This document shows, in pieces, positions 10,219 through 32,027 of a stretch of DNA of 64,000 bases. A model generated the notes under the pieces. The model was given only the letters and a program-made list of their open reading frames with translations. It was not told the DNA's origin and ran no database searches. Made by a program: the position numbers and the translations under genes. Positions within the stretch are counted from its first letter, which is position 1; each line of letters starts with the position of its first letter. Location of the stretch: positions 124,001 through 188,000 of the forward strand of contig JAJYDK010000002.1 of assembly GCA_021777555.1 (NCBI GenBank), written 5' to 3'. The stretch is from Pseudomonadota bacterium (lineage in GTDB: Bacteria; Pseudomonadota; Gammaproteobacteria; Steroidobacterales; Steroidobacteraceae).

Positions 10219-11268
10219 ATGAAAAACCTGCTCGTGCCGGCGGCTGCGGTCGCTGCGCTCCTGTTGACCCTCCCAGGTGAATCCTTCGCTCAAGGCGCCG
10301 TGCGGTGGCAGCCGCTGCCGACCGTGGCGCCGGCCCCGGCGGATAATCCGACGACGCCCGCGAAGGTGCGCCTCGGCAAGATGTTGTTTTTCGACCCGCG
10401 ACTCTCTTCAACGGGCACCGTGTCGTGCTTCTCCTGCCATAACATCATGGAAGGCGGCGATGACCACCGTCCCGTGTCCATCGGTGTCGAGGCGCAGCGC
10501 GGTGGGCGGAACGCTCCCACGGTGTTCAACGCGGCATTTCTCTCTGTGCAGTTCTGGGACGGCAGGGCGGCCACATTGGAGGATCAGGCGAAGGGTCCGC
10601 CAGTCAACCCCATCGAGATGGGCATGAAGAACTTCGGCGAGGAGATCTCCCGGATTCAAGCGATCCCGGGATATCGTCCCTATTTCGTGCAGGCGTTCGG
10701 CCCGGGCAATGTCGTGACCATGGACAATGCCGCGAAGGCGATCGCCGCCTACGAGCGCACGCTCATCACGCCGGGCAGCGCCTATGACCGGTACGTCGAA
10801 GGAGCGCACAACGCGCTCACGGCGCAGCAGATCAGAGGAATGAACGATTTCGCCTCGGTCGGGTGCGCTGGCTGTCACCAGGGACCGAACTTCAGCGGGC
10901 CGCCGTTGCCCATGGGGCAGGGGTTTTTCGTGAAGTTTCCCGTCTACCCGCAGAGCCCGTACGTGGCGAAGTACGATCTCATGAAGGATCTGGGACGTTA
11001 CGATGTGACCCACAATCCGGCGGACAAGAATGTCTGGCGGGTCCCCGGTCTGCGCAACCTCCTCTACACGGCCCCCTACATGCATAACGGCTCGGTCAAA
11101 ACCCTCCCCGAGGCGGTGAGGGTCATGGCCTCGACCCAGCTGAATCGCGAGCTGACGGATCAGCAGGTGAACGACATCACGGCGTTCCTCGGATCGCTCA
11201 CCGGACCGTTCCCGAAGCAGACCATGCCACGCCTGCCGCCGACGCCGGGGGATCTGCTGGGTCGCTAG
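10219..11268 (+). CDS. Di-heme cytochrome c peroxidase
   Basis: Periplasmic protein of 349 residues. A Sec signal peptide (ends ESFA-QG) is followed by two heme-c sites, CFSCH and CAGCH, about 150 residues apart, as in bacterial CcpA/MauG-type peroxidases that reduce hydrogen peroxide with electrons from cytochrome c. LGKMLFFDPRLSSTGTVSC, FWDGRAATLEDQA and the C-terminal VPGLRNLLYTAPYMHNGS are hallmark CCP segments; the last supplies a heme ligand Met. A cytochrome b561 gene follows 60 bases downstream and may be an electron partner. Confidence 0.93.
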   Translation: MKNLLVPAAAVAALLLTLPGESFAQGAVRWQPLPTVAPAPADNPTTPAKVRLGKMLFFDPRLSSTGTVSCFSCHNIMEGGDDHRPVSIGVEAQRGGRNAPTVFNAAFLSVQFWDGRAATLEDQAKGPPVNPIEMGMKNFGEEISRIQAIPGYRPYFVQAFGPGNVVTMDNAAKAIAAYERTLITPGSAYDRYVEGAHNALTAQQIRGMNDFASVGCAGCHQGPNFSGPPLPMGQGFFVKFPVYPQSPYVAKYDLMKDLGRYDVTHNPADKNVWRVPGLRNLLYTAPYMHNGSVKTLPEAVRVMASTQLNRELTDQQVNDITAFLGSLTGPFPKQTMPRLPPTPGDLLGR

Positions 11269-11328
11269 CGGGGATGGCATCGCCATGCGCAGTCAGATAT
11301 TCGCGCCATATGCTCCGGGACGCGTGCC

Positions 11329-11964
11329 ATGCCGGCCATGAACCCCTCCGCCCGGTACGATGGCCTCTCGCAGTTCCTGCATTGGGCGATCGTGCTGCTG
11401 GTCCTCGTTCTGCTCGTCATGGGCAAGGTGGGGCTCGTCGATGCCGAGCATCCCGAGAGTGCGGCCTTCATGTGGCACGGGTCTCTCGGGGTGCTGGTGC
11501 TCGTACTGGTGGCCGCCAGGGCGATCTGGCGCCTGCGGCGTCCGCCTCCGGAGTTCCCTTCGACGATGACGCGCCTCGGCCGGATCGGCGCGAGGATGAT
11601 GCACGCCTCGCTCTATGTACTGCTGATTGCGCTGCCACTTTCCGGATGGCTCGCAGCCTCGTCCGAGGGGAGCAACGTCAATTTCTTCAATGTTGCAACG
11701 CTTCCACGCTGGGGGGGCTCCGTGACCGCCGATCGAGGGTCGGCCGCGGCGCCCCGGACGCGGGCGGTAGCGGAGTCGGCGGAGGGTCGCGAGGATCTCG
11801 CCGAGGAGGCGCACGAGCTCCTCGGGGATGCGCTCATCATTCTGGCCAGCCTGCACGTGCTCGCGGCGCTCAAGCACCAATTCATCGACCACGACGACCT
11901 CATCCGCCGGATGCTGCCGGCCGTGTGGCCGAGAACCCCGGGGACGAGGTCGACGGGCGGATAG
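11329..11964 (+). CDS. Cytochrome b561 family membrane protein
   Basis: A 211-residue di-heme b-type cytochrome of the inner membrane with four hydrophobic helices. It starts RYDGLSQFLHWAIVLLVL, has MWHGSLGVLVLVLVAARAIWRLRRP, MMHASLYVLLIALPLSGWL and HELLGDALIILASLHVLAALKHQFI; the His residues in these helices are the expected heme ligands. Such proteins move electrons from quinol to periplasmic acceptors. The hydrophilic loop before the last helix is longer than usual (about residues 115-155). Confidence 0.9.
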   Translation: MPAMNPSARYDGLSQFLHWAIVLLVLVLLVMGKVGLVDAEHPESAAFMWHGSLGVLVLVLVAARAIWRLRRPPPEFPSTMTRLGRIGARMMHASLYVLLIALPLSGWLAASSEGSNVNFFNVATLPRWGGSVTADRGSAAAPRTRAVAESAEGREDLAEEAHELLGDALIILASLHVLAALKHQFIDHDDLIRRMLPAVWPRTPGTRSTGG

Positions 11965-20930: not shown

Positions 20931-22142
20931 TCAGGAGGCGGACGCCTGGGTAAGAGAGCTCGCCAGGGCCCGTTTGAAGGGCCGGACCCGATCCCCGATG
21001 CGCACCAGCGCCTGGCGCGCGAGGCGGGCCGGCAGTCGCTCGTCGGTGTAGAGGCCCACGAGGGCGTTGGTTGCGCCATAGAGCGGCAGCGTGGCGCGCC
21101 GGTGGCCTCGCTCGTAAGGGGCGAGAACGGCGGGGGCGCCGATGTCACGGCGGTCGAACGCGGCCCGGTCGATCTCGCGGGCGAGCCGCACCGCGCCGCG
21201 CAATCCCAGATTGAATCCATGGGCGGTGACGGGGTGCATCCCGACCGCCGCATCTCCCACCAGCGCAAATCGCGGTCCGGTGAAGCGATCCGCCAGCACG
21301 GCCACGAGCGGATAGGCGAACACCTCGCCCGTGCGCCGCATCCATCCCATCCGACTCCCGTAGCGACGCTCGACTTCGATGTCGAAGTCCATGGCGTCGA
21401 GCTCCTGCAGCCTCCGGGCCTCGCTCCCGGGGAGCGTGATCACGGCGGAGGAGCGGTTGCCCCTCAAGGGCAGCAGCGCCAGCGTCTGTCCGTGATCGAA
21501 CCACTCCGAGGCGACCTCCCCGTGGGGCTTTTCGTGCTCCATGCGGCATACCAGCATGGTCTTGCCGAAGTCCCGGGAGCGGGCCGGGATGCCCGCCATG
21601 CGGCGGACCTCGGAGAAACGGCTGTCCGCCGCCACCAGCAGGGGCGCGCGAAGGACTTGCCGGTCCGAGAGCGTCACCCGGACCCCGGCAGGTTCCCATC
21701 GCGCCTCCGACACGGAGGTGTCGGCGAGGAGCGTGACGTGATCCATCCGCCGCACCGCCTCGCAGGCGGCGCGGCGGATCAGGTGGTTCGGAACGAGATA
21801 GCCGAGCTCGCCCGCACCGCCGTCGAGGTGATCGATGCGCATGCAGCGCGCGGAGGCGCCGTTGAAGACCCGGACATCGGTGATCCGCGAGACCTCATCC
21901 GCTGCGATCCCCGGCCAGATGCGCAAGTTCTTGAGGGATTGCACGGAAGCGTGTGTGAGTGCGATCTCCCGGCCGTCGAAGGCGGGATCGCAGAGGCTCT
22001 CGAGCGGCTGACGGTCGATGAGTGCGACGCTAAGGCGGCGGTTCTCGAGGGCCGCCGCCAGGCACAGGCCGGCCGGGCCGGCGCCTGCGATCACGATATC
22101 GAAGCGCCGCTCAGAGCCTTCTGGCCTCACGAGTTCGGACAT
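20931..22142 (-). CDS. UbiH/UbiF/UbiM/COQ6-type FAD-dependent hydroxylase
   Basis: A 403-residue flavoprotein monooxygenase. Residues 14-40 form the ADP-binding fold (IVIAGAGPAGLCLAAALE), DGREIALTH follows near residue 56, and the second FAD motif is FALVGDAAVGMHPVTAHGFNLGL near 290. The VTAHGFNLGL variant recalls UbiM-type enzymes. These proteins hydroxylate the ring of ubiquinone precursors or related aromatic prenyl compounds. It starts one base after the radical SAM stop and is the last gene of the nine-gene operon. It may serve ubiquinone synthesis or tailor the cluster's product; if O2-dependent, its place under FNR control is noteworthy. Confidence 0.88.
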   Translation of the reverse strand: MSELVRPEGSERRFDIVIAGAGPAGLCLAAALENRRLSVALIDRQPLESLCDPAFDGREIALTHASVQSLKNLRIWPGIAADEVSRITDVRVFNGASARCMRIDHLDGGAGELGYLVPNHLIRRAACEAVRRMDHVTLLADTSVSEARWEPAGVRVTLSDRQVLRAPLLVAADSRFSEVRRMAGIPARSRDFGKTMLVCRMEHEKPHGEVASEWFDHGQTLALLPLRGNRSSAVITLPGSEARRLQELDAMDFDIEVERRYGSRMGWMRRTGEVFAYPLVAVLADRFTGPRFALVGDAAVGMHPVTAHGFNLGLRGAVRLAREIDRAAFDRRDIGAPAVLAPYERGHRRATLPLYGATNALVGLYTDERLPARLARQALVRIGDRVRPFKRALASSLTQASAS

Positions 22143-22143
22143 G

Positions 22144-24012
22144 TCACCGCACGGAGTCGGACAGGGCGAACTGGAAGGGCCAGGCGTTGAGGGAGATCAG
22201 CCCGTGAAGCGCGCCGGCCTCGATCGAGACCTGATCCGCGAAATGCGTCAATCGGCGCAGCAGCCGCTGCAGCCGCGGTACGTCGGCGGCATGGATTTCC
22301 TCGAAACGAAGCGTGATTCTGCCGGGTGTGTCGTTGAGGTAGGCGCGCAGATGCCTCGCGGTGCGCCTTACGCGGGCCGGGACGGCCCGCAGGGAGAGCG
22401 CCAGTGCCGGCGTTCCGTGATCGCTCGCGCTGTGGCCGACGGTGACTTTGCCCGCGCCGCAGCGTCGCAGGGCCTGCGCGAGGCGTGCGAGGCGGGTGTT
22501 CCATAGCGCCGGAGCCTGCAGCACCGGCTCCACGAGATGCCTTCGGGCGTAATCCTGCATCGACAACCCGACGATCCAGTCCCCGATGGTCGAGGGAATC
22601 TGCCAAGGCTTCGCGAACGGGAAGCTGCGCAGGAAGTGCCAGACGCGAAGCGGACCTCCCCGCAGCACGCCGCGCCAGAGCAGGCGCGCCAGGATGCCGA
22701 GGCTTGTAGCGGCCCCGTATTCCGTTCCACCCGGGGCTCTGCCGAGGAAGCGGTTCTTGTGGCGGATGCGGCCGGCGATCGCCCCGTTCGCGAGCAGCCG
22801 CTCGTACAGGCGGCGATAGCCGCTGAGGAGTTCCTCGCGGGACATGCCGAGGGGCACGACGTTCGTATCCAGCTTGGTGTTGTCGCCGTCGTTGTCCGTG
22901 ACGTGCAGCCGGTTGGCGGCGCGCAGCCGCTCGTAGAGGGGCGTGCGCGGCATGGCATTCAGCAGGCCGATCATCGCCGTCTGGATGCCCGAGCGCAGAA
23001 TGAATTCGTACTGACGCTCGAAGGTGGAGACCGTGTCGTTGTCGAAGCCGATGATGAAGCCGGCCAGCACTTCGATGCCATGCGCGTGGATCCGTCGCAC
23101 CGCCGTGAGCGGGTCCTCGCGCATGTTCTGCAGCTTGTGCGTCTCGCGCAGGCTCGCCTCGTCGGGGGATTCGATGCCGATGAAAGTCCAGGCGAAGTGC
23201 GCCTCCCGAAAGAGGTCCATGAGTTCCTCGTCCTGGGCGAGGTTGAGCGAGGTCTCGGTGCCGAAACTGAAGGAATAGCGGTGTCGCTTCTGGTAGTCGA
23301 TGAGGAATCTGAGCAGGCTCTTGGCGACCTTGAGGTTGCCGATCAGATTGTCATCGACGAAGAAGATCTTCCGCACCCCGTGCTCGCGCAGGATGTCGAG
23401 CTCCCGGCCGATCTGCTCGAGGCTCTTGTGCCGGGGTTTGCGGCCGAACATCACGATGATGTCGCAGAACTCGCACATGTAGGGGCAGCCGCGCGAGAAC
23501 TGCAGGGTCGCGGTTGTGTAGAGCGAGAGCTTCAGCAGATCGAAACGGGGCGTCGGAGAGGTGCGCAGATCGATCGTGTCCTGCTCCCGATAGAGCGCAA
23601 GCGCCGATCCGGCTTCGAAGTCGGCGCAGAAGCGCGGCCAGATCCGCTCCGCTTCGCCGCAGATCACCGCATCGGCCAGGCTTTCGTAGTGCTCCGGGCA
23701 GAGCGAGGCGTAGCTGCCTCCGGCCACCACGAAGTGCCCCCGGCCACGATAGTACTCGAGCAGCTCGCGCTGCCGCGGAAACTGCACGCCCATGCCGCCG
23801 ATGCCGATCAGATCCGCCTCCGGCTCGAGAGGCAGGGGCTCGACGTTCTCATCGACGATGCGGACTTCCCAGTGAGGAGGGCAGAGCGCAGCGAGCGTTG
23901 CGAGGCCAAGCGGTGGATTGACCGCGCGCCGCCCCGACAGCACCTCGCTCACCGCCCAGCGGAAGGTCCAGAAGCTTTCCGGGGACTTGGGATTGATCAA
24001 CAGCAGACGCAT
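22144..24012 (-). CDS. Radical SAM protein with B12-binding-like N-terminus and DUF4070-like C-terminus
   Basis: A 622-residue enzyme. Residues 1-150 form a cobalamin-binding-like Rossmann domain (MRLLLINPKSPESFW...NPPLGLATLAAL), but the DxHxxG cobalamin motif is absent (IVDENVEPL instead). The radical SAM cluster motif is GCPYMCEFC (Cys176, 180, 183), followed by DIIVMFGRKPRHKS, typical of the DUF4070 group that includes hopanoid 2-methylase HpnP. No hopanoid genes are nearby. An FNR box lies 63 bp before the ATG (centre to start). Likely catalyses an oxygen-sensitive methylation or rearrangement within the operon's pathway; exact reaction unknown. Confidence 0.85.
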   Translation of the reverse strand: MRLLLINPKSPESFWTFRWAVSEVLSGRRAVNPPLGLATLAALCPPHWEVRIVDENVEPLPLEPEADLIGIGGMGVQFPRQRELLEYYRGRGHFVVAGGSYASLCPEHYESLADAVICGEAERIWPRFCADFEAGSALALYREQDTIDLRTSPTPRFDLLKLSLYTTATLQFSRGCPYMCEFCDIIVMFGRKPRHKSLEQIGRELDILREHGVRKIFFVDDNLIGNLKVAKSLLRFLIDYQKRHRYSFSFGTETSLNLAQDEELMDLFREAHFAWTFIGIESPDEASLRETHKLQNMREDPLTAVRRIHAHGIEVLAGFIIGFDNDTVSTFERQYEFILRSGIQTAMIGLLNAMPRTPLYERLRAANRLHVTDNDGDNTKLDTNVVPLGMSREELLSGYRRLYERLLANGAIAGRIRHKNRFLGRAPGGTEYGAATSLGILARLLWRGVLRGGPLRVWHFLRSFPFAKPWQIPSTIGDWIVGLSMQDYARRHLVEPVLQAPALWNTRLARLAQALRRCGAGKVTVGHSASDHGTPALALSLRAVPARVRRTARHLRAYLNDTPGRITLRFEEIHAADVPRLQRLLRRLTHFADQVSIEAGALHGLISLNAWPFQFALSDSVR

Positions 24013-24041
24013 GAGGTTCGGGGCTCGAGGTCGGATGCGTC

Positions 24042-24082
24042 AGCCTAGCCCTGCCCAGGGAGGGAGTTTTGATCTCGATCAA
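24042..24082 (-). promoter_or_regulatory. Internal FNR-dependent promoter before the radical SAM gene
   Basis: TTGATCTCGATCAA at 24069-24082 is a perfect FNR/ANR palindrome (TTGAT-N4-ATCAA). On the minus strand a TAGGCT hexamer occupies 24047-24042, its centre 31 bp from the box centre, matching class II FNR activation. A transcript starting near 24035 would have a 23-nt leader before the ATG at 24012. The box overlaps the last codons of the UbiA gene. Activity is predicted, not shown. Confidence 0.72.
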
Positions 24083-24984
24083 ATATGCGGGGCAAGCAGC
24101 GCGAAAACCGCGACGATCGCCAGCTGCGCGAGGGGATAGAGGCTCGCGTGATCGAAGAGCCTCGCGGCCTCGCGATGCTCGTGCGAGCGCATGAGCTGAA
24201 AGCCCGGCCGCAGCAGCAGAACCACGCCCGCCAGGGCGCTCGTCGCCAGATATGGCACGCCGAGCGCAAGGGGTGACATGCGCGGCAGGAACAGGCTGAG
24301 CACAACGGTGAGCGTGAGGGCGAGAGCGACCAGCCTGCCCGCCACGCGCGGTCCGAAGGCGAGCGGGATGGTCGCGGCGCCGACCCGCTTGTCTTCCTCG
24401 ACATCGTTCCAGTCCGCCGGGATGTTCTGCCCGCCGATTTCCCAGCACATGAGCCACGCGAGCAACAACAGCAGGAGCGAGGGCGAGGGGTGCGGAGTGA
24501 CGACGAATACCGCGGCGAGCGGGCCGGCGGACTTGACGAGTCCGCTGACCAGCGTGCGCCAGTAGGTGACCTTGAGCAGCAGGCAGTAGAGCACTTCGAG
24601 CGCGGCCGCGGCGAGCACGATGATCAGGAGGGCGGGGTTCAACAGGTAGGCGCCGAGGAGCGTGAGCGCGTACCAGAACGCGAACCAGGCGATGCCGCTG
24701 CGCATGGAGAGGATGCCTTGCGCGAGCGGATGGCGCATGTCGGATGCCTCGAGCGAATAGCCTGCGTTGATCCCCGCGCCGGCGAACTTCTCCCGGTCGA
24801 TCCTCACGCCGATGAGATCGTTCAGGGCATAGATGGCGGTGTAGCCGGCACCCGCCGTGAGCAGCGAGAGCAGCAGCACCGGCCATGAGGGGAGATGTCC
24901 GAGCCAGAGCAGGGCGACGAAGCCGGGCATGGCGGCATCCACGATGCCGTGCTTCGATCGGGATAGGGCCAGGAATCGCCGCAT
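24079..24984 (-). CDS. UbiA-superfamily prenyltransferase
   Basis: Polytopic membrane protein of 301 residues with eight to nine helices. The first prenyl-diphosphate/Mg site reads ALNDLIGVRIDREKF, where the usual second Asp of NDxxD is Gly. The second site, ADWNDVEEDKRVGAATIP, is a complete DxxDxxxD-type motif. RHPLAQGILS after the first site is the typical RPLasG segment. It transfers an isoprenoid chain to a small acceptor. The ubiG stop is 7 bases upstream with AAGGTGAG between. In ebo-type clusters a UbiA protein (EboC) accompanies a sugar-phosphate cyclase, as here. Confidence 0.9.
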   Translation of the reverse strand: MRRFLALSRSKHGIVDAAMPGFVALLWLGHLPSWPVLLLSLLTAGAGYTAIYALNDLIGVRIDREKFAGAGINAGYSLEASDMRHPLAQGILSMRSGIAWFAFWYALTLLGAYLLNPALLIIVLAAAALEVLYCLLLKVTYWRTLVSGLVKSAGPLAAVFVVTPHPSPSLLLLLLAWLMCWEIGGQNIPADWNDVEEDKRVGAATIPLAFGPRVAGRLVALALTLTVVLSLFLPRMSPLALGVPYLATSALAGVVLLLRPGFQLMRSHEHREAARLFDHASLYPLAQLAIVAVFALLAPHI

Positions 24985-24991
24985 CGGAATC

Positions 24992-25702
24992 TCACCTTTT
25001 CTTGATGAAGCAGGCCATGTAGTTGACGTCCGCCTTGCCGGGGGCCACCCGGAACCGCCCCGTCAGCGGGTTGTAGAGGAGGCTTGCGATGGCGGTGAAT
25101 TCGAGGCCGCTCCGCTGCGCCCACTCGCGCAGCTCCCGCGGGCGGATCAACTTCCGGTACTGGTGCGTCCCGCGCGGCAGGAGTCTGAGTACGTACTCGC
25201 CGCCGAGGATGGCGAACAGAAACGCCTTGAGCGAGCGGTCGATGGTCGAAAAAAAGGCCTGCCCGCCGGGCTTCAGGAGGCGCGCACAGGCGGCGATCAC
25301 CTCGCTGGGCTCGGGCACGTGCTCCAGCATTTCCATGCACGTGAGGGCATCGAAGCCGCCTTCGGCCTCCTGCGCGATCTGCTCCACGCTCATGTAGCGG
25401 TAGTCGATCCCGAGGCCGTGGGCGGCGGCATGCCGGCGGGCGGCTTCGAGCGTCGGTTGCGACAGATCGATCGCGGTCACTTCCGCGCCCGCGTGGGCCA
25501 GAGCCTCGGAGAGAATGCCGCCCCCGCACCCCACGTCCAGGATCTTCGGCCGGGGCAGCTCGATCTGCCCGAGGATGAATGCGCTGCGCAGCGGGTTGAT
25601 GACATGCAACATGCGCATCGGTCCCCCGGTGTCCCACCACATGCGCGAGACCCGGTCGAACTTCGCGATCTCCTGCTGGTCAGCGTTCGAGAGCAGGTTC
25701 AT
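24992..25702 (-). CDS. ubiG: UbiG-family SAM-dependent O-methyltransferase
   Basis: A 236-residue methyltransferase very close to UbiG along its length: EIAKFDRVSRMWWDTGGP, LHVINPLR, ILDVGCGGGILSE (SAM site), DALTCMEMLEHVPEP, STIDRSLKAF and the ending GKADVNYMACFIKKR. UbiG methylates both O-positions in ubiquinone synthesis. The ATG at 25702 gives UbiG length; it overlaps the cyclase gene by 23 bases. Its position inside this operon leaves open whether it is the housekeeping UbiG or a paralogue acting on the cluster's product. Confidence 0.92.
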   Translation of the reverse strand: MNLLSNADQQEIAKFDRVSRMWWDTGGPMRMLHVINPLRSAFILGQIELPRPKILDVGCGGGILSEALAHAGAEVTAIDLSQPTLEAARRHAAAHGLGIDYRYMSVEQIAQEAEGGFDALTCMEMLEHVPEPSEVIAACARLLKPGGQAFFSTIDRSLKAFLFAILGGEYVLRLLPRGTHQYRKLIRPRELREWAQRSGLEFTAIASLLYNPLTGRFRVAPGKADVNYMACFIKKR

Positions 25703-26828
25703 GGTCTGCGCATGTCCGATCGTGAAGCGCGGTGATGGAAGACTCGATCTCCTGCCGGGTGATGTCATTCAGGAAGACGCAGTGGCCGATCGAGTCCGGC
25801 ATGGGCGAGCGCTGCAAGCCGTTGCGGTGCTCGATGCGCTCGAGGAGGGCTTGCCAGAGGATCTCGGCATCGAGAAGGCTGATGTCGAGCGGGAGTCCGA
25901 GCGAATCGATCAGGCAGAAAATCCGCGCCGTTTCGCGCTCGGACAGCAGGCGTCGTTCTCTTGCGATCAGCGTCGAGACGGCGATGTCGAGGAGCACCGC
26001 CTCACCGTGCAGCAGGCGTGCTTCGTGGCGGGATTCGAGCCCGTGGCTGAAGGTGTGCCCGAAATCCACCTTGCGGGACAGGTTATCTTCGAAGAGGTCC
26101 GGCTCGAGTTCCTCCAGCATTCCCGAGATCGCACGCTCGAGGATCATTCCGCCGGCGGGGTTCTGGAAGCGGCTGACGATGCTCTCGGCCCCATGCGCCT
26201 CGAGCAGCTGGAACAGACCGGAATCCTTGATGATCGCGAGCTTGAGGATTTCACACACGCCATTGAGGATGTGGCGGTGGGGCAGAGTCCGCAGGAACTC
26301 CTTGTCGAGCAATACCCGCAGCGGAGGCTCGAAGCTCCCCAGGCGATTCTTGTGGCCGTCGAAATTGATGCCGGTCTTGATCCCCACGGAGGCATCGACA
26401 TAGCCCATCAGGGTCGTCGGGACCTTGATGTGCGGCACACCGCGCCGGTAGCAGCTCGCGACGAACCCGACCACATCGGTGAGCACGCCGCCGCCGATGG
26501 CGATGATGGGCTCATCCCGGCGCCGGATCGGAAAGGCATCGAGTTCGCGCAGAATCTCGAGGTAGCCGTCCATCCTCTTGCTGCGCTCGCCGCCGGCGAA
26601 GAAGACGATCCTGGCCTCGATCCCGTGATGCGCGAAGTAGGCGTACAGGTCATCGGCGCAGTGGCGCGCGACGTTGCGGTCGATGACCACGAACCGGCGC
26701 CCCTGCTCGAGCCTGCCGACCGAGAGCAGCGCACGGTTCTGCGGCTCGAAGAGCCTGGGGGCTTCGAGGATATCGTAGGCGATCGGGCGGTTCTGGCGGA
26801 TGCGCCACCGGGTGAGGCCTTCGCTCAT
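25680..26828 (-). CDS. Sedoheptulose-7-phosphate cyclase / EboD-like sugar-phosphate cyclase
   Basis: A 382-residue member of the dehydroquinate-synthase fold. GGGVLTD (112-118) is the NAD-binding glycine motif; VPTTLMGYVDASVGIKTG is the active-site segment; E193 in CEILKLAII, His in DFGHTFSHG and His in LLHGEAV are the expected zinc ligands. The segment HKNRLGSFEPP replaces the KNxIGxFxQP of true AroB and is typical of the C7-cyclitol synthase branch (EEVS, EVS, DDGS, EboD). It would convert sedoheptulose 7-phosphate or a similar sugar phosphate to a cyclitol. Its start overlaps the luxS-like stop (ATGA). Which C7 product forms cannot be told by eye. Confidence 0.85.
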   Translation of the reverse strand: MSEGLTRWRIRQNRPIAYDILEAPRLFEPQNRALLSVGRLEQGRRFVVIDRNVARHCADDLYAYFAHHGIEARIVFFAGGERSKRMDGYLEILRELDAFPIRRRDEPIIAIGGGVLTDVVGFVASCYRRGVPHIKVPTTLMGYVDASVGIKTGINFDGHKNRLGSFEPPLRVLLDKEFLRTLPHRHILNGVCEILKLAIIKDSGLFQLLEAHGAESIVSRFQNPAGGMILERAISGMLEELEPDLFEDNLSRKVDFGHTFSHGLESRHEARLLHGEAVLLDIAVSTLIARERRLLSERETARIFCLIDSLGLPLDISLLDAEILWQALLERIEHRNGLQRSPMPDSIGHCVFLNDITRQEIESSITALHDRTCADHEPALER

Positions 26829-27307
26829 ACCGCATCCATCCAGGTGGATCTGGATTCCAACACTTCGCGGGCGACCTCGCGGGCGAGCTCGAGGCTGTGG
26901 TTGCGGTAGTTGCCGCACTGGTCGATGCGCGCGTACGGCACGGCGAGCGAGCTGCGGATGCCGGTGAGGATGTCCTGCAGCACCCGCCGGATCGTCCAGG
27001 CGCGGCCTTCGTTGAGGAAGGTGAGATAGAAGCCGGTCTGGCAGCCCATGACGCCGACGGACACGAAATTCTCCGGCAGCTCGCGCTTGAGGCCCTCGAG
27101 GAGGAAGTGCTCGATGGAATGCAACTCCGTGGCGGACAGCTCCTGGTCGGCGTTCGGGCGCCGGATGCGCAGGTCCACGCAATAGACCACGTCGCCGTTG
27201 CGGCCGGGGCTGGCGGAGCGCAATTTGATGCTCGGCGCCTTGAGCAGCCGGTGATCGAGCTCGCCGATGGTCTTCGGATCCCAGCCGAGGGCTTCGACAT
27301 CGATCAT
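26825..27307 (-). CDS. LuxS-family S-ribosylhomocysteine lyase homologue
   Basis: About 160 residues from ATG 27307 (169 if ATG 27334 is used). Every catalytic element of LuxS is present: the metal-binding HSIEH (His63, Glu66, His67), MGCQTGFYLTF with catalytic Cys89, and QCGNYRNHSLELAREV with metal ligand Cys131. ELDHRLLKAPSIKL matches the LuxS N-terminus. LuxS cleaves S-ribosylhomocysteine to homocysteine and DPD, the AI-2 precursor. The sequence is clearly divergent from common LuxS, and it sits between an isomerase and a cyclitol synthase, so a pathway-specific role is possible. Pfs is not in the window. Confidence 0.88.
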   Translation of the reverse strand: MIDVEALGWDPKTIGELDHRLLKAPSIKLRSASPGRNGDVVYCVDLRIRRPNADQELSATELHSIEHFLLEGLKRELPENFVSVGVMGCQTGFYLTFLNEGRAWTIRRVLQDILTGIRSSLAVPYARIDQCGNYRNHSLELAREVAREVLESRSTWMDAV

Positions 27308-27358
27308 GGTGGGTCCTGGTTGGTCGGTGGGCATCTTCGGCCGGCGCGCACGAGACCC

Positions 27359-28609
27359 CTAGCGGGGCGTGTCGGTGAAATTCGCGAGGTGCCGGTGGCT
27401 GTCCCGAAGGGCTCTCTCCCACGATTCGACATGGTGATAGAGCTCCACCGAGGCGTACCCCGAGAACCCATTGCCGGTCAGCGCGCGGAAGCTCGCGGCG
27501 AAATCGAGCGTCCCTTCCCCGGGAATCTCGTGGAAATGCACGATGCCGGTGCGCGTATTGGCGACCATCCGGTCGATGAGGGGCGGGCTGCGCACGCCGC
27601 GCAGATGAGCGATCACCGGTCTGGCGCGCTCGAGCACCTCGTAGCTCAGCCCCGCGACGGAGATGAGGTAGGTGAATATCTCATCGTCCAGGGGCGATGC
27701 GCCGGCGTACAGGCTCGGATAATCGATGTGGCGCGGCGCTTTGTGCACTGCCGCCCGGGCAAGCAGCGCGTCGATCCGTCGCCGCCGCGCAAGCCCCGGC
27801 TTCGCATCGCAGAAATAAAGCGGATGGTCGCGGTCCACGAGCAGATAGTCCGCGGTATCGGGGAAGTAGACGAGCTTCGCCGCGGCATCCAGATCGAAGG
27901 TCAGGTCTTCGGCGTCATTCTCGATTTTCAGGTTGTAGCCCTGCCGGGCGTCCGAGACGTGCAGGTAACGGGTGGCCGGCGCCGCCTCGGCGAGCGCTGC
28001 GATGTAGTTCTTCTCGGAACAATACGCGTGGCAGAGGTCCACGTGCAGCCGGAAGTGCGGCGAATCGATCTGCTCGATCAGCGCCAGGCCCTGTTCCATC
28101 GTCTCGATGAGCATGCCGGGCTCGGGCTCGATCAGGAGCGTGATGTCTTCATCATCGCGGATCTCTCGCAGGCACTCCTCGATGCCCTCCAGCAGGAGCA
28201 GGTGTGGATCCACCGAGGGGTGACTCACGTGCTCCTCCCGCAGGAAGCCGCTGCCGAAGGTGACCAGCGGCGCGCCCAGCCGGCGGGCGAAGTGGATGCC
28301 GCGCTTGATGAGGTCGATGCGGCGCTTGCGGCCCGCGAGGTCGAGCGACATCAGCGACGGTTCGTGCGGCCGGGAGGGGGTGAAAAAATGCGAGGCGGTC
28401 GCGATGCAGGCGGGCTTGAGGTGGGCGGCCTCGAGGCGTTTGCGGATGGCCGCCAGGGCGTCATCGTCGATGTCGAAGGGGTTCAGCTGGCGGCGATGGA
28501 AGGAAATCTCGACTCCGGAGTAACCTGCGCGGCCCACTGCATCGATGGCGTCCAGGATATCGAGATCGGTCAAGCCGAAGGTGCAATAGCTGAGCTCGAG
28601 TGCGCCCAT
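27359..28609 (-). CDS. TIM-barrel sugar-phosphate isomerase/epimerase-like protein
   Basis: A 416-residue protein of the xylose-isomerase-like TIM-barrel (AP endonuclease 2) superfamily. Strand/metal motifs include GYSGVEISFHRR, LVTFGSGFL, LLIEPEPGML (Glu), LHVDLCHAY (Asp, His), YLHVSDARQGYN and the final GYASVELYHH (Glu), consistent with a divalent-metal isomerase. The C-terminal part is longer than in simple isomerases. It starts 4 bases after the nadB stop and precedes the luxS-like gene. EboE of ebo clusters is also a TIM-barrel protein, but orthology is not certain. Confidence 0.82.
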   Translation of the reverse strand: MGALELSYCTFGLTDLDILDAIDAVGRAGYSGVEISFHRRQLNPFDIDDDALAAIRKRLEAAHLKPACIATASHFFTPSRPHEPSLMSLDLAGRKRRIDLIKRGIHFARRLGAPLVTFGSGFLREEHVSHPSVDPHLLLLEGIEECLREIRDDEDITLLIEPEPGMLIETMEQGLALIEQIDSPHFRLHVDLCHAYCSEKNYIAALAEAAPATRYLHVSDARQGYNLKIENDAEDLTFDLDAAAKLVYFPDTADYLLVDRDHPLYFCDAKPGLARRRRIDALLARAAVHKAPRHIDYPSLYAGASPLDDEIFTYLISVAGLSYEVLERARPVIAHLRGVRSPPLIDRMVANTRTGIVHFHEIPGEGTLDFAASFRALTGNGFSGYASVELYHHVESWERALRDSHRHLANFTDTPR

Positions 28610-28613
28610 CGGC

Positions 28614-30170
28614 CTAGGCCCGCACGGAAGAGGCGCTCGAGGGCGCGCCGCTCGAGCTTTCGCTTTCCAGAGAGTGGGACGAGAGTGGGCGGGACCGCGA
28701 GGGATCATCCGCCCGCTGGTGCGCGCCGCGGCTCTGCTTACGGTGCCATGCGGCCGTCAACAGCGCCCTGGCGAGGCACAGCCGACCGCGCAGCAGCACC
28801 TGTTCCGGCGTGCTCCTGCGATAGAGCGTGGCGAACTCCGTGAGTCCCGCCAGCAGTCCGCGCGCATCCCGCACGATTCCAGCGTGCGTCCACATGAGAT
28901 GACGCAGATCGCCCCAGACCTCCGCATCGAACTGCAGAGCCGTCTCGTCCAGCGCCATGTCGGGTCGTGCGGCGCAGCGTCTCGTCGACTCTCTCTTGCG
29001 CGAGAGCGCGCCGCCCAAGCGCCGGCCAAACACGGCAGCCTCGAGCAGGGAGTTGCTCGCCAGGCGATTTGCGCCGTGGACCCCGCTGCAAGCCACCTCG
29101 CCGCAGGCCCAGAGTCCGGGCAGACTCGTATGCCCGTCCACGTCCACCGCAACGCCGCCCATGTGATAGTGCGCCGCGGGGATCACCGGAATGGGATCCA
29201 GCGCCGGGTCGATGCCGTGCGCCTGACACAGGGCGCTCACCTGCGGAAAGGCGTGGCTGTCTGCGGACACGATCCCTGTGGCATCGAGCCAGACACGGTG
29301 CCCCTGAGATACTTCGGCCCACACCGCGCGCGCGACGATATCCCGCGGCGCGAGGTCGCCGGCCGGATGAGCGTCTTCCATGATTCGCCGGCCGCGTGCG
29401 TCGATGAGCGTGGCGCCGGCCCCCCGAAGCGCCTCGGTCACCAAGGGGAGGGGGTCTGCCGCGCAGGCGAGCGCGGTGGGATGAAACTGGACGAATTCGA
29501 GCGCCTGGAGCCGCGCGCCGGCTCTGAGGGCCATCGCGAGCCCATCGCCGCACGCGGAGGTGGGATTGGTCGTATGCAGGTAGAGCTGGCCCATGCCCCC
29601 GGTCGCAAGCACCGTATCGTTCGCGCGCAAGGCGACGGCCCCTCCACCCGAGGAGACTGCGACGACCCCGGAGACTCCGGCAGGGTCGCGCATCAGCGAT
29701 ACGGCGGTGAGCCCGGTCAGCACTTCCACATTCGGGGCGGAGCGCACCGCGCGATAGAGTGAATCCGTGAGCGCGGCGCCCGTTGCATCTCCCCCGACGT
29801 GCAGAACCCGTGCCCGGTCATGCGCCGCTTCGCGGTGCAATGCCCAATGATCGCCATCCCGGTCGAAGCGGACACCGTGCGCCTCGAGCCAGGTGATGGC
29901 AGCCGGGGCCTCGCGGCACAGCAGCATCACGGCCGGCGGCCAACTTTCGCCGGCTCCGGCACGCAGGGTGTCCGCCGCGTGCAGCGCCGGGTCGTCATCC
30001 TCGGCGACCGCGGCGGCGATGCCCCCCTGCGCGAGCGAGCTGGCGGTCAACGAGGGCGGGGTGCGCGGACACAACAGTGTGACCCGACGGCGGGGGCTGG
30101 TGCCGAGCGCCGCGGCGAGCCCGGCCAGGCCGGCGCCCACGATGAGGACATCGGTATCGGTTTCCTGCAC
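28614..30170 (-). CDS. nadB: L-aspartate oxidase
   Basis: A 518-residue flavoenzyme that oxidises L-aspartate to iminoaspartate, first step of NAD synthesis from aspartate. Motifs: GAGLAGLAAAL (FAD), SSLAQGGIAAAV, the active-site FVQFHPTAL, HYHMGGVAVDVDG and GLWACGEVACSGVHGANRLASNSLLE, all typical of NadB and the succinate-dehydrogenase flavoprotein family. The C-terminal domain is present but ends in a Ser-rich tail. GTG start one base after the nadA stop. In anaerobic conditions NadB can use fumarate instead of oxygen, which would fit FNR control. Confidence 0.93.
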   Translation of the reverse strand: MQETDTDVLIVGAGLAGLAAALGTSPRRRVTLLCPRTPPSLTASSLAQGGIAAAVAEDDDPALHAADTLRAGAGESWPPAVMLLCREAPAAITWLEAHGVRFDRDGDHWALHREAAHDRARVLHVGGDATGAALTDSLYRAVRSAPNVEVLTGLTAVSLMRDPAGVSGVVAVSSGGGAVALRANDTVLATGGMGQLYLHTTNPTSACGDGLAMALRAGARLQALEFVQFHPTALACAADPLPLVTEALRGAGATLIDARGRRIMEDAHPAGDLAPRDIVARAVWAEVSQGHRVWLDATGIVSADSHAFPQVSALCQAHGIDPALDPIPVIPAAHYHMGGVAVDVDGHTSLPGLWACGEVACSGVHGANRLASNSLLEAAVFGRRLGGALSRKRESTRRCAARPDMALDETALQFDAEVWGDLRHLMWTHAGIVRDARGLLAGLTEFATLYRRSTPEQVLLRGRLCLARALLTAAWHRKQSRGAHQRADDPSRSRPLSSHSLESESSSGAPSSASSVRA

Positions 30171-30171
30171 T

Positions 30172-31260
30172 TCACACTCCCGGGGGGCCGGCAGGGCCCG
30201 AAGCGGCGGGATCCGCGGACCGCACCCGAGGCGATGCCGTCAGTTCCATCATGCGCAGAACCGCTCTGCGGGCGCCCGCGGCCACCTCCTCCGCCACCTC
30301 GACACGCGGCTCGAGGCGCTCGAGGCAGTCGCGGATGTTGGTGAGCGTGATGCGCTTCATGTGCGGGCAGAGATTGCACGGACGCAGGAAGTGAATCTCG
30401 GGATAGAGCACGGCGACGTTGTCCGCCATCGAGCACTCGGTCAGGAGCAACGCGGATGCGGGGCGGCGCGCTGCGAGGCGCGAGATCATGCCCGCCGTCG
30501 ACCCGACATAGTCCGCCGCCTGCTGCACTTCCCGCGGACACTCCGGATGGGCGAGCACATAGGCGCCCGTGAGTGTGCGGAACTCGGCGACGTCGGCCGC
30601 CCGGAAGCGCTCGTGGACTTCGCAATGACCGTGCCACGATATGATCTCGACCCGCGTCTGCGCGGCGACGTAGCGGGCGAGATATTCATCCGGCACCAGA
30701 ATGACACGCTCGCTGCCGAGCGCCTCGACGACCGCGACCGCGTTGGCCGAGGTGCAGCAGGCGTCGCACTCGGCCTTCACCGCCGCTGAAGTATTCACAT
30801 AACACACCACCGGCACTCCGGGGTGCCTGCGGCGCAGCTCACGCACGTCTTGCGGTTGGATCGCCTCCGCGAGCGAGCAGCCGGCCTGTGTGTCGGGCAG
30901 GAGAACCGTGCGGCCCGGATTGAGCAGCTTCGCGGTCTCCGCCATGAAGCGCACGCCGCACATCACGATCACATCGGCATCGCCCTCGGCCGCCTCGCGC
31001 GCGAGGGCGAGCGAATCACCCCGCAAATCCGCAACGCCGTGAAAGATCTCCGGGGTCTGATAATTGTGGGCGAGGATGATCGCCCTGCGCTCGGCTTTGA
31101 GGCGCTCGATGTCCCGGATGAGGGGCTCGAACAGCAGCCACTCGGGCTCGGAGAGCGCGCCCCGCAGCCGCTCATAGGTACTTTCCGCAATATCGCGGCG
31201 GGCCGGCGCACGGCCGCTCGCGGCTGAGACGTGCGAAAATGAAGGGGTCGGCACGGCCAT
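30172..31260 (-). CDS. nadA: Quinolinate synthase
   Basis: A 362-residue [4Fe-4S] enzyme condensing iminoaspartate with dihydroxyacetone phosphate to quinolinate. The three cluster cysteines are in MCGVRFMAETAKLL, CDACCTSANAV and CNLCPHMKRI; AHNYQTPEIFHGVADLRGDSLALA and YVNTSAAVKAECD are family signatures. ATG 31258-31260 is used. The predicted FNR-dependent transcript would begin almost at this codon, so either the message is leaderless or translation begins slightly farther in (GTG at codon 3 is in frame). First gene of the nine-gene operon. Confidence 0.94.
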   Translation of the reverse strand: MAVPTPSFSHVSAASGRAPARRDIAESTYERLRGALSEPEWLLFEPLIRDIERLKAERRAIILAHNYQTPEIFHGVADLRGDSLALAREAAEGDADVIVMCGVRFMAETAKLLNPGRTVLLPDTQAGCSLAEAIQPQDVRELRRRHPGVPVVCYVNTSAAVKAECDACCTSANAVAVVEALGSERVILVPDEYLARYVAAQTRVEIISWHGHCEVHERFRAADVAEFRTLTGAYVLAHPECPREVQQAADYVGSTAGMISRLAARRPASALLLTECSMADNVAVLYPEIHFLRPCNLCPHMKRITLTNIRDCLERLEPRVEVAEEVAAGARRAVLRMMELTASPRVRSADPAASGPAGPPGV

Positions 31261-31319: not shown

Positions 31320-32027
31320 ATGGAATCGACCAGCACCGAGCTGTCCTGCGGCAGCTGCGCGCTGTCGCGCATCTGCCTGCCCGCCCACCTCTCCGCACGG
31401 GAGACCCGCATCCTAGCCGGCGCCGTAGAGCGTGGCCGGGAGCTGCAATCCGGTGCGCGACTCATCCGGGCCGGGGCGCGAATGGACGCCTTGTACGTCG
31501 TGCGCAGCGGCTCAGCTAAGAGCTGCGGCGTGATGAACGATGGTGAGGAATACGTGCGCGCATTCAACCTGCCGGGTGAAGTGGCCGGCCTCGAGGGATT
31601 CGCGGACGGCCATCACACCTGCGACCTGGTGGCGCTCGAGCCGCTGCGCTATTGCCGCATCCCCCTCGGGCGTCTCGAGCGGCTGATGGAGACGCTACCG
31701 GGCCTCAGGCGCGAGGTGCTGCGTCTCCTCGGGCAGTCCCTCGAGGAGGCGCAGCGCATGCGCACCGAGGTGAGCATGGTCGATGCGCGCGGACGGCTCG
31801 CGAGTTTCCTGGTGGATCTGTCGCGCAGACTCGAGCGGCGCAACCTCCCGCCGATGCATTTCAGGCTCAGCATGAGCCGGCGAGACATCGCCCGGCACCT
31901 GGGGCTCACGCTCGAGACGGTGAGCCGCTCGCTCGGTGCCTTCCGCAGCGCAGGCTGGGTCGAGGTGCGGGCGCGCTACATCAAGCTGCTGCAGCCGAAG
32001 GCGCTCGCCGCGCTGCTTGCGCACTAG
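31320..32027 (+). CDS. fnr: FNR-type oxygen-sensing transcription regulator
   Basis: A 235-residue CRP/FNR-family regulator. The N-terminal CGSCALSRICLP supplies three cluster cysteines (10, 13, 19), and YCRIPL supplies the fourth, equivalent to E. coli Cys122, so an oxygen-labile [4Fe-4S] cluster is expected. The cNMP-like barrel precedes a helix-turn-helix with SRRDIARHLGLTLETVSRSLG; Glu, Ser and Arg there match the FNR recognition helix (ExxSR) for TTGAT sites. A perfect TTGAT-N4-ATCAA box lies just upstream, shared with the nadA operon. Confidence 0.95.
   Translation: MESTSTELSCGSCALSRICLPAHLSARETRILAGAVERGRELQSGARLIRAGARMDALYVVRSGSAKSCGVMNDGEEYVRAFNLPGEVAGLEGFADGHHTCDLVALEPLRYCRIPLGRLERLMETLPGLRREVLRLLGQSLEEAQRMRTEVSMVDARGRLASFLVDLSRRLERRNLPPMHFRLSMSRRDIARHLGLTLETVSRSLGAFRSAGWVEVRARYIKLLQPKALAALLAH

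Follow-up and report, generated by a model that had tools for sequence, protein, structure and literature searches.

A five-gene cassette joining a LuxS-like protein to a sedoheptulose-7-phosphate-type cyclase and UbiG and UbiA homologs, with a predicted prenylated, cyclitol-derived product

A run of nine genes in a 64-kb window (the window is the whole stretch analyzed, 64,000 nucleotides at positions 124,001 to 188,000 of contig JAJYDK010000002.1 in the Steroidobacteraceae assembly GCA_021777555.1) contains a five-gene core that encodes, in order, a xylose-isomerase-like TIM barrel protein, a LuxS-like protein, a cyclase of the sedoheptulose 7-phosphate (SH7P) type, a UbiG-type O-methyltransferase, and a UbiA-superfamily prenyltransferase (Table 1). 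Judged by gene order and protein phylogeny, this core is a real, conserved, and horizontally spread unit. From its enzyme families, it probably makes an O-methylated, prenylated compound derived from a C7 cyclitol. The preliminary description of this DNA had predicted a prenylated, methylated cyclitol-derived product from a single pathway of all nine genes. The product remains a supported prediction, given the presence of an SH7P-type cyclase with UbiG and UbiA. The single nine-gene pathway is not supported, as only the five core genes are conserved and the flanking genes are local.

The LuxS-like protein was scanned against one genome per species and the best 80 loci were kept, which makes the cassette numbers lower bounds. 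Gene bounds were taken from tblastn frames, with the start codon nearest the expected start. These loci comprise 58 with ordinary LuxS (L025 to L082) and 22 others (L003 to L024). No homolog of the TIM protein, cyclase, or UbiA (E value of 1e-10) was found in the fetched flanks of any of the 58 ordinary LuxS loci. The complete series TIM-LuxS-cyclase-UbiG-UbiA is present in the same order in 17 of the 22 others (L003 to L006, L008 to L017, and L019 to L021); L007, L018, and L023 are interrupted by a contig end, and L022 and L024 are forms in which TIM and LuxS are fused. A class-wide search with the cyclase, in which 3 of 274 genomes matched at an E value of 1e-60 (the window's own genome counted), added one complete locus (L090) and one that begins at LuxS at a contig end (L091). 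Complete loci with the same order, the window included, thus number at least 19. When the preliminary description was checked for conservation of gene order, the middle five genes passed clearly and nadAB, the radical SAM gene, and the hydroxylase gene failed as conserved members; the conserved order supports five of the nine genes, beyond what chance would give.

By record title, the hosts belong to two phyla, one proteobacterial and one Anaerolineae/Chloroflexi, and nearly all are metagenome-assembled genomes (MAGs); they include Anaerolineae/Chloroflexi, Rhodanobacter, Thermomonas, Comamonas, and Spongiibacteraceae. The closest locus among the matches listed is in a gammaproteobacterial MAG (L003), with a LuxS-like protein 95% identical to that of the window. 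Among the 19 complete loci, the LuxS-cyclase junction is a 4-base overlap in 15, with starts as set here, and pairwise distances among the five proteins correlate with r values of 0.85 to 0.93. A concatenated tree, in which row L017 is long-branched, requires two between-phyla changes versus one under vertical descent, which implies that the cassette has passed from one phylum to another at least once. When plasmids were searched with the cyclase and the TIM protein (LuxS was not searched there), related proteins were returned and, among the matches listed, no record with both. In a Natronospirales MAG, the cyclase and UbiG share one open frame (L023:288-2120), possibly through an assembly error.

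In a literature search that left most subscription papers and all preprints out of reach, the five genes were found together only in an appendix table of PMC8756737. Table A1 of that paper gives the five cassette genes of SURF MAG 42, an Anaerolineales MAG, the consecutive accessions RJP53741 to RJP53745, close to a Chloroflexi nirS gene (RJP53747) with a hydrolase between. They appear there as nirS neighbors, and the part of the paper that lists them proposes no function for them. Within the same scope, no paper came up that brings LuxS, 3-dehydroquinate synthase, UbiA, and a radical SAM enzyme together in an operon. We saw no link to denitrification among the flanking genes scanned, which are a hand-picked part of each flank.

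The LuxS-like protein scores below the cutoff of all 10 NCBIfam LuxS models that it matched (best, 107.9 bits versus 158). To our knowledge, LuxS is known for one reaction, the cleavage of ribosylhomocysteine with release of the precursor of autoinducer 2 (AI-2). Twenty-five cassette-type rows, including two fusion forms and one partial sequence, were compared with the 58 ordinary LuxS proteins, which are mostly from Firmicutes. The N-terminal Ser6/Phe7 columns of this alignment are uncertain owing to an insertion, and the columns from Asp78 on (Asp78, Cys84, and Cys126) carry what we take to be their Bacillus subtilis numbers. His11, Arg39, and His54 are found in 24 of 24 cassette-type rows and Glu57, His58, Cys84, and Cys126 in 25 of 25, so that the HxxEH motif, the catalytic Cys84, the metal-binding Cys126, and Glu57 are invariant in the rows that cover them. 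Asp78 is found in none of the 25 rows (Ser in 23 and Cys in 2), and the Arg65 column holds Gln in 12, Arg in 5, Lys in 4, and another residue in 4. The relevant passages of PMC2656534 describe Glu57, Arg65, and Asp78 as important in LuxS substrate binding, and those of PMC3907816 describe carbonyl-shift chemistry with Cys84 and Fe(II).

Each of 13 host genomes, the window's own included, has one LuxS match, and all 13 encode SahH over the cutoff (matched in pieces in three). Pfs exceeds its cutoff in 2 of the 13; the window's genome reaches 25.4 bits versus a cutoff of 73.8. With SahH in every host and Pfs in so few, most of these hosts probably do not make the substrate on which LuxS usually acts. 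The SahH match of Desulforadius (G283:C6:79740-80588) contains one in-frame TAA. Compared with S-ribosylhomocysteine lyase, the LuxS-like protein shares the family and the catalytic and metal residues but differs in its substrate pocket and in hosts that carry SahH, and it is encoded beside, or fused to, a sugar isomerase-like protein. The fusions, with TIM and LuxS in one open frame, are in Desulforadius tongensis (L022:8708-10486) and Zooshikella harenae (L024:8837-10444). As Desulforadius lacks UbiG and UbiA beside these genes and a transporter gene follows the cyclase in Zooshikella, TIM, LuxS, and the cyclase look like a separable ring-making module, able to exist without the prenylating half. 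A LuxS that has kept its catalytic machinery and lost substrate-pocket residues would represent a new biosynthetic use of the family.

The window's cyclase belongs to the DHQ_synthase family and, at 229 bits, lies under the aroB cutoff of 305. Its best match in the PDB is ValA (4p53), a 2-epi-5-epi-valiolone synthase (EEVS), at 332 bits, with true 3-dehydroquinate synthases (DHQS) at 140 bits or less, and its identity is 45% with a Streptomyces SH7P cyclase and 31% with two EboD proteins. A tree was built from 36 rows, with L007 (cut at a contig end) excluded and L097 and EboD_L102 N-terminally trimmed. In it, the 23 cyclases of the cassette type make up a single clade (100/100), which belongs to a group with ValA, desmethyl-4-deoxygadusol synthase (DDGS), and annotated SH7P cyclases. 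The branch parting this group from DHQS and the two EboD rows has support of 95/93 (98/94 in an earlier tree) and carries a long-branch warning. All 23 cassette-type cyclases keep the metal ligands E213, H284, and H300 and have D and H at the equivalents of ValA D281 and H360, numbers that we take to be those of ValA and that were matched to the alignment. At the latter two sites, two DDGS rows have A and T, and DHQS rows have N at 281. The part of PMC4426668 that treats such sites counts 14 of them as fingerprints and has sites of this kind distinguish EEVS from DDGS; our comparison covered D281 and H360. The cassette cyclases therefore share a group and metal ligands with ValA and DDGS, and D281/H360 with ValA, but differ in forming a clade of their own and in their partners LuxS, UbiG, and UbiA. 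The preliminary description had named a C7-cyclitol-type cyclase, and the PDB match, the tree, and the fingerprint residues agree with it.

The TIM protein has the motifs EPEPG, H.D..H, lH.sD, and vELYhH conserved in an alignment of 23 sequences (one is partial); by analogy, these presumably form a metal site. An AlphaFold2 model built from 19 sequences has a mean predicted local distance difference test score of 87.2, and a Foldseek search with it returned ketose 3-epimerases, IolE, and AsbF among many matches, with no single answer. The protein is an enzyme of the isomerase/epimerase/dehydratase superfamily. AsbF and IolE, which dehydrate ring ketones, belong to the same superfamily but are only 10 to 14% identical to the cassette TIM protein, and many epimerases score equally well or better.

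All 22 cassette UbiGs group in a single clade (100/99), next to which two of the seven canonical UbiGs are placed (96/91). The cassette proteins resemble the UbiG of ubiquinone synthesis in that the window's protein exceeds the model cutoff and most rows keep the segment GEY.LRLLPRGTH.Y common to canonical UbiG, but they differ in their separate clade and in being the only UbiG match at an E value of 1e-30 in the four Chloroflexi genomes searched. Two UbiG matches were found in six of the seven proteobacterial genomes with the cassette that were searched. Two Asp-rich motifs, ALND...D and PADWND..ED, are conserved across the 22 UbiAs of the cassette, and the window's protein scores 39.4 bits with the ubiA_proteo model (cutoff, 275). 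Elsewhere in the window's host, whose assembly of 4.02 Mb is 97.4% complete, UbiA (C16; 328 bits, cutoff 275), UbiG (C110; 263 bits, cutoff 103), and UbiH (C24; 406.5 bits, cutoff 392) are all encoded over their cutoffs, as are heme O synthase (C28) and a MenA-like protein (C34; 110.6 bits, cutoff 102), and a second UbiH-family hydroxylase adjoins UbiH. With UbiA, UbiG, and UbiH encoded elsewhere, the usual ubiquinone synthesis is expected in this host.

In the pathway that we favor, the cyclase would close SH7P to a valiolone-type ketocyclitol, as its family and fingerprint residues suggest. The TIM protein and then the LuxS-like protein, or the two in reverse order, would act on the sugar or the ketocyclitol by metal-assisted enolization, carbonyl shift, and beta-elimination of water. 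The LuxS-like step would resemble LuxS chemistry on ribosylhomocysteine, minus the homocysteine, and coupling of the two proteins is supported by the two TIM-LuxS fusions. By family, UbiG would methylate a catechol-type hydroxyl and UbiA would attach a prenyl chain, and as the product we favor a phenol or hydroquinone that carries a methoxy group and is held in the membrane. A cyclitol-derived ring with a farnesyl chain has a precedent, likened here by description only, in the BE-40644-type isoprenoid-cyclitol cited in the part of PMC5133447 consulted. An uncharacterized prenylated metabolite is accordingly to be looked for among Anaerolineae and several proteobacteria, where the cassette predicts it.

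Several observations weigh against this pathway. The EboD rows also have D281/H360, so the pair by itself is compatible with an EboD-like activity, and two hosts (G277 and G279) do have Pfs. In Desulforadius, the cyclase follows the TIM-LuxS fusion and UbiG and UbiA are not beside it, while the Zooshikella cyclase is encoded on a different contig from the fusion, at its end, and a gene for a major facilitator superfamily transporter comes next on the same strand; a prenylated lipid is thus not a necessary outcome of the ring module. The core encodes no dehydrogenase. The flanking genes scanned across loci share no common physiological theme, and any new quinone would be an addition to the host's ubiquinone set. 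Finally, we infer which step follows which, what reaction TIM carries out, and that the ring is aromatized.

A more specific proposal, to which we give a small but real chance, is that the cassette makes a quinone with the substitution pattern of ubiquinone by a route that does not involve chorismate, with LuxS as the ring-aromatizing enzyme. Two beta-dehydrations of 2-epi-5-epi-valiolone, one by TIM and one by LuxS, would yield 2,4,5-trihydroxybenzyl alcohol. The argument is structural: the ketone of 2-epi-5-epi-valiolone lies between CH2 and CHOH with beta-hydroxyls on both sides, and the trihydroxybenzyl alcohol would arise after tautomerization without net redox change. Because aromatization would be redox neutral, oxygen would not be needed. 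UbiA would then prenylate next to CH2OH and UbiG would methylate the catechol hydroxyl, giving demethoxyubiquinol with CH2OH replacing CH3. Set against demethoxyubiquinol, the catechol hydroxyl would match the methoxy position, the unoccupied carbon next to CH2OH the prenyl position, and the last ring CH the position that still awaits hydroxylation; the neighboring UbiM could hydroxylate this last one next. Should the product be a quinone, a sugar of the pentose phosphate pathway would supply its ring, bypassing the shikimate pathway, and Anaerolineae would own an unrecognized benzoquinone. Our literature search, which did not reach most subscription papers or any preprints, found no paper tying 2-epi-5-epi-valiolone to a quinone and UbiA.

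The preliminary description had called the run ebo-related. On that account, the cassette would be a remodeled ebo operon making a nonaromatic prenylated cyclitol with roles in transport or defense, which we regard as unlikely. The resemblance is real in kind. The part of PMC5133447 consulted describes ebo/EDB clusters as short operons in several phyla that likewise combine a sugar-phosphate cyclase, a UbiA, and a xylose-isomerase-like TIM protein; EboD shares D281/H360, and the isomerase of an actinobacterial locus (L100) is 31% identical to the window's TIM protein over 235 aligned positions. The individual proteins, however, are not EboD, EboE, and EboC by their models. With the EboE model NF035939 (cutoff, 250), the TIM proteins of the window and L016 gave no match at an E value of 0.001 and the EboE of L101 scored 416. 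With the EboC model NF035940, the UbiAs of the window and L016 gave no match at the same threshold, although the control is a poor one, as L101's own EboC-type protein scored 69.6 against a cutoff of 250 and is also under the SCO3242 cutoff. With PRK06203 (cutoff, 333), the window's cyclase scored 213 bits and the EboD of L101 scored 525, and in the tree the two EboD rows fall with DHQS and not in the clade of SH7P cyclases, subject to the long-branch warning. In one alignment, neither the L101 EboC nor the SCO3242-type protein of L100 has a counterpart of the cassette UbiA's second Asp-rich motif. The cassette adds LuxS and UbiG. EboA, EboB, and EboF are absent from the nine window genes, as the preliminary description had said, and the core of the complete loci has no room for them (largest gap, 156 bases); EboE was not found in the window's own genome. 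We therefore reject ebo membership on the models, the identities, and the cyclase tree. The likeness is one of kind of enzyme, not demonstrated cluster descent, and the ebo label should be dropped. The ebo-type locus on the Streptomyces plasmid (L100:3873-11057) has an inositol-3-phosphate synthase and no DHQS-family cyclase annotated there; it also holds a SCO3242-type UbiA, an isomerase, EboA, a TatD-like protein, EboE, and a phosphodiesterase.

Three further explanations were weighed. The LuxS-like protein could be an ordinary S-ribosylhomocysteinase that recycles the S-adenosylhomocysteine of UbiG in the activated methyl cycle, with AI-2 as a by-product. Its complete set of catalytic and metal residues, a methyltransferase gene two genes downstream, and the two hosts with Pfs fit this, but SahH in every host, the scarcity of Pfs, the loss of Asp78 and mostly of Arg65, the fixed position between TIM and cyclase, and the TIM-LuxS fusions make it very unlikely, and a role as AI-2 enzyme was rejected on the SahH and Pfs distribution and the lost pocket residues. 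That the cassette UbiG, UbiA, and UbiM merely serve host ubiquinone is extremely unlikely: the UbiG and UbiM models are matched over their cutoffs, but the host encodes UbiA, UbiG, UbiH, and a second hydroxylase elsewhere, the cassette occurs in four Chloroflexi genomes that have no other UbiG match, and its UbiA is far from the ubiA_proteo model. Highly improbable, too, is one nine-gene pathway in which nadAB supply quinolinate or iminoaspartate and the radical SAM enzyme and hydroxylase finish the product. Gaps of 1 and 4 bases do link the codirectional nadAB to the core in the window, the same neighbors are found in L003 and L004, UbiM suits ring hydroxylation, and EboC-type enzymes prenylate quinoline acids in vitro according to the relevant part of PMC9235831. 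Among the loci examined, however, the window, L003, and L004 are the only ones in which nadAB adjoin the cassette. In a search of 13 host genomes, NadA is single copy in those three; of the other 10, 7 carry it on a contig other than that of the cassette, and in 3, all from Chloroflexi, the search did not find it. Membership of nadAB was rejected on this single-copy NadA and its absence from beside the cassette in other loci. Homologs of the radical SAM protein were found in 7 of 229 genomes of the class, the window's own counted; the three examined, at 48 to 55% identity, are not accompanied by UbiM or cassette genes within the stretches covered, and their genomes are not among the cyclase-positive genomes of the class-wide search. 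With its closest homologs standing alone, the radical SAM protein was rejected as a cassette enzyme. UbiM lies next to the cassette in the window and its near-twin L003, and the L004 contig stops inside the radical SAM gene. The radical SAM-ubiM pair is, moreover, preceded by its own FNR box. The nine-gene framing should be dropped.

The window's run itself is arranged as first described. The nine genes all lie on the minus strand within 20931-31260, with Pfam and NCBIfam assignments that match, and the reported "gaps of 1-66 bases or overlaps" are, in transcription order, 1, 4, 24, -4, -23, 7, 66, and 1. The last of these places the start of the UbiM-type gene 1 base past the radical SAM gene; its product is one of three proteins in the host genome above the TIGR01988 cutoff.

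Table 1. Genes and putative regulatory sites of the nine-gene run (window positions; cutoffs are those of the named models)
Feature	Coordinates	Strand	Basis and remarks
nadA, quinolinate synthase	30172..31260	-	NCBIfam, over cutoff; sole copy found in host; flank
nadB, L-aspartate oxidase (NAD synthesis)	28614..30170	-	NCBIfam, over cutoff; flank
Core gene 1, xylose-isomerase-like TIM barrel, 416 amino acids, proposed isomerase/dehydratase	27359..28609	-	PF01261, E value 4.9e-37
Core gene 2, LuxS-like enzyme, 169 amino acids	26825..27334	-	PF02664, E value 1.1e-30
Core gene 3, EEVS-like SH7P cyclase, 382 amino acids	25680..26828	-	Best PDB match ValA 4p53
Core gene 4, UbiG O-methyltransferase paralog, 236 amino acids	24992..25702	-	TIGR01983, 248.6 bits (cutoff 102.95)
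Core gene 5, UbiA-superfamily prenyltransferase, 301 amino acids	24079..24984	-	PF01040, E value 6.1e-30; two Asp-rich motifs
B12-binding radical SAM protein with DUF4070	22144..24012	-	Pfam/NCBIfam; lineage-specific flank
UbiM-type ubiquinone hydroxylase	20931..22142	-	NF006593, 519.8 bits (cutoff 420); lineage-specific flank
Divergent fnr-family regulator	31320..32027	+	PRK11161, 182.8 bits (under cutoff 228)
Putative FNR box TTGATCCGGATCAA	31295..31308	-	Perfect; in fnr-nadA spacer; 21 bases to TAGAGT hexamer
Putative FNR box TTGATCGAGATCAA	24069..24082	-	Perfect; over ubiA stop codon, before radical SAM gene; 21 bases to TAGGCT

FNR-activated promoters carry TTGATNNNNATCAA centered about 41.5 bases before the start site, and a site near -41 is the class II activating position. 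Three matches to the box with at most one mismatch occur in the 64 kb, compared with a mean expectation of 0.38, and none of 100 shuffles reached three. Both boxes in Table 1 stand 21 bases from a TAnnnT hexamer, a putative promoter element; at this spacing, FNR would sit near -41 of start sites predicted from the DNA alone. In L003, the radical SAM-side box is perfect with the same 21-base spacing, and the contig begins inside the nadA-side box. L004 has both boxes with one mismatch each, the nadA-side box 22 bases from TACAGT and the radical SAM-side box at a spacing of 21. The boxes of L003 and L004 lie before nadA or the radical SAM gene, not directly before the core, and no box with at most one mismatch was found within 300 bases before the core in L003 to L024, L018 and L023 having no sequence there. 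We rejected the idea that FNR control belongs to the cassette in general, with boxes seen only in the window's lineage, of which such control looks like a feature. The separate boxes at nadA and the radical SAM gene suggest that the run is probably two transcription units and that the radical SAM gene and ubiM may have their own promoter. In this lineage, the cassette, lying behind nadAB and their putative FNR-activated promoter, is predicted to be expressed at low oxygen.

Other genes were noted near the cassette or in the window. On the Chloroflexi contig of L008, shikimate dehydrogenase-like and chorismate synthase genes precede the cassette (L008:2272-4326). In Comamonas, a gene for a Crp/Fnr-type regulator with a long N-terminal part is upstream of it (L013:7384-8535). 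In the window, positions 10219-11964 encode, by reading only, a di-heme cytochrome c peroxidase-like protein and, after it, a membrane protein that resembles cytochrome b561.

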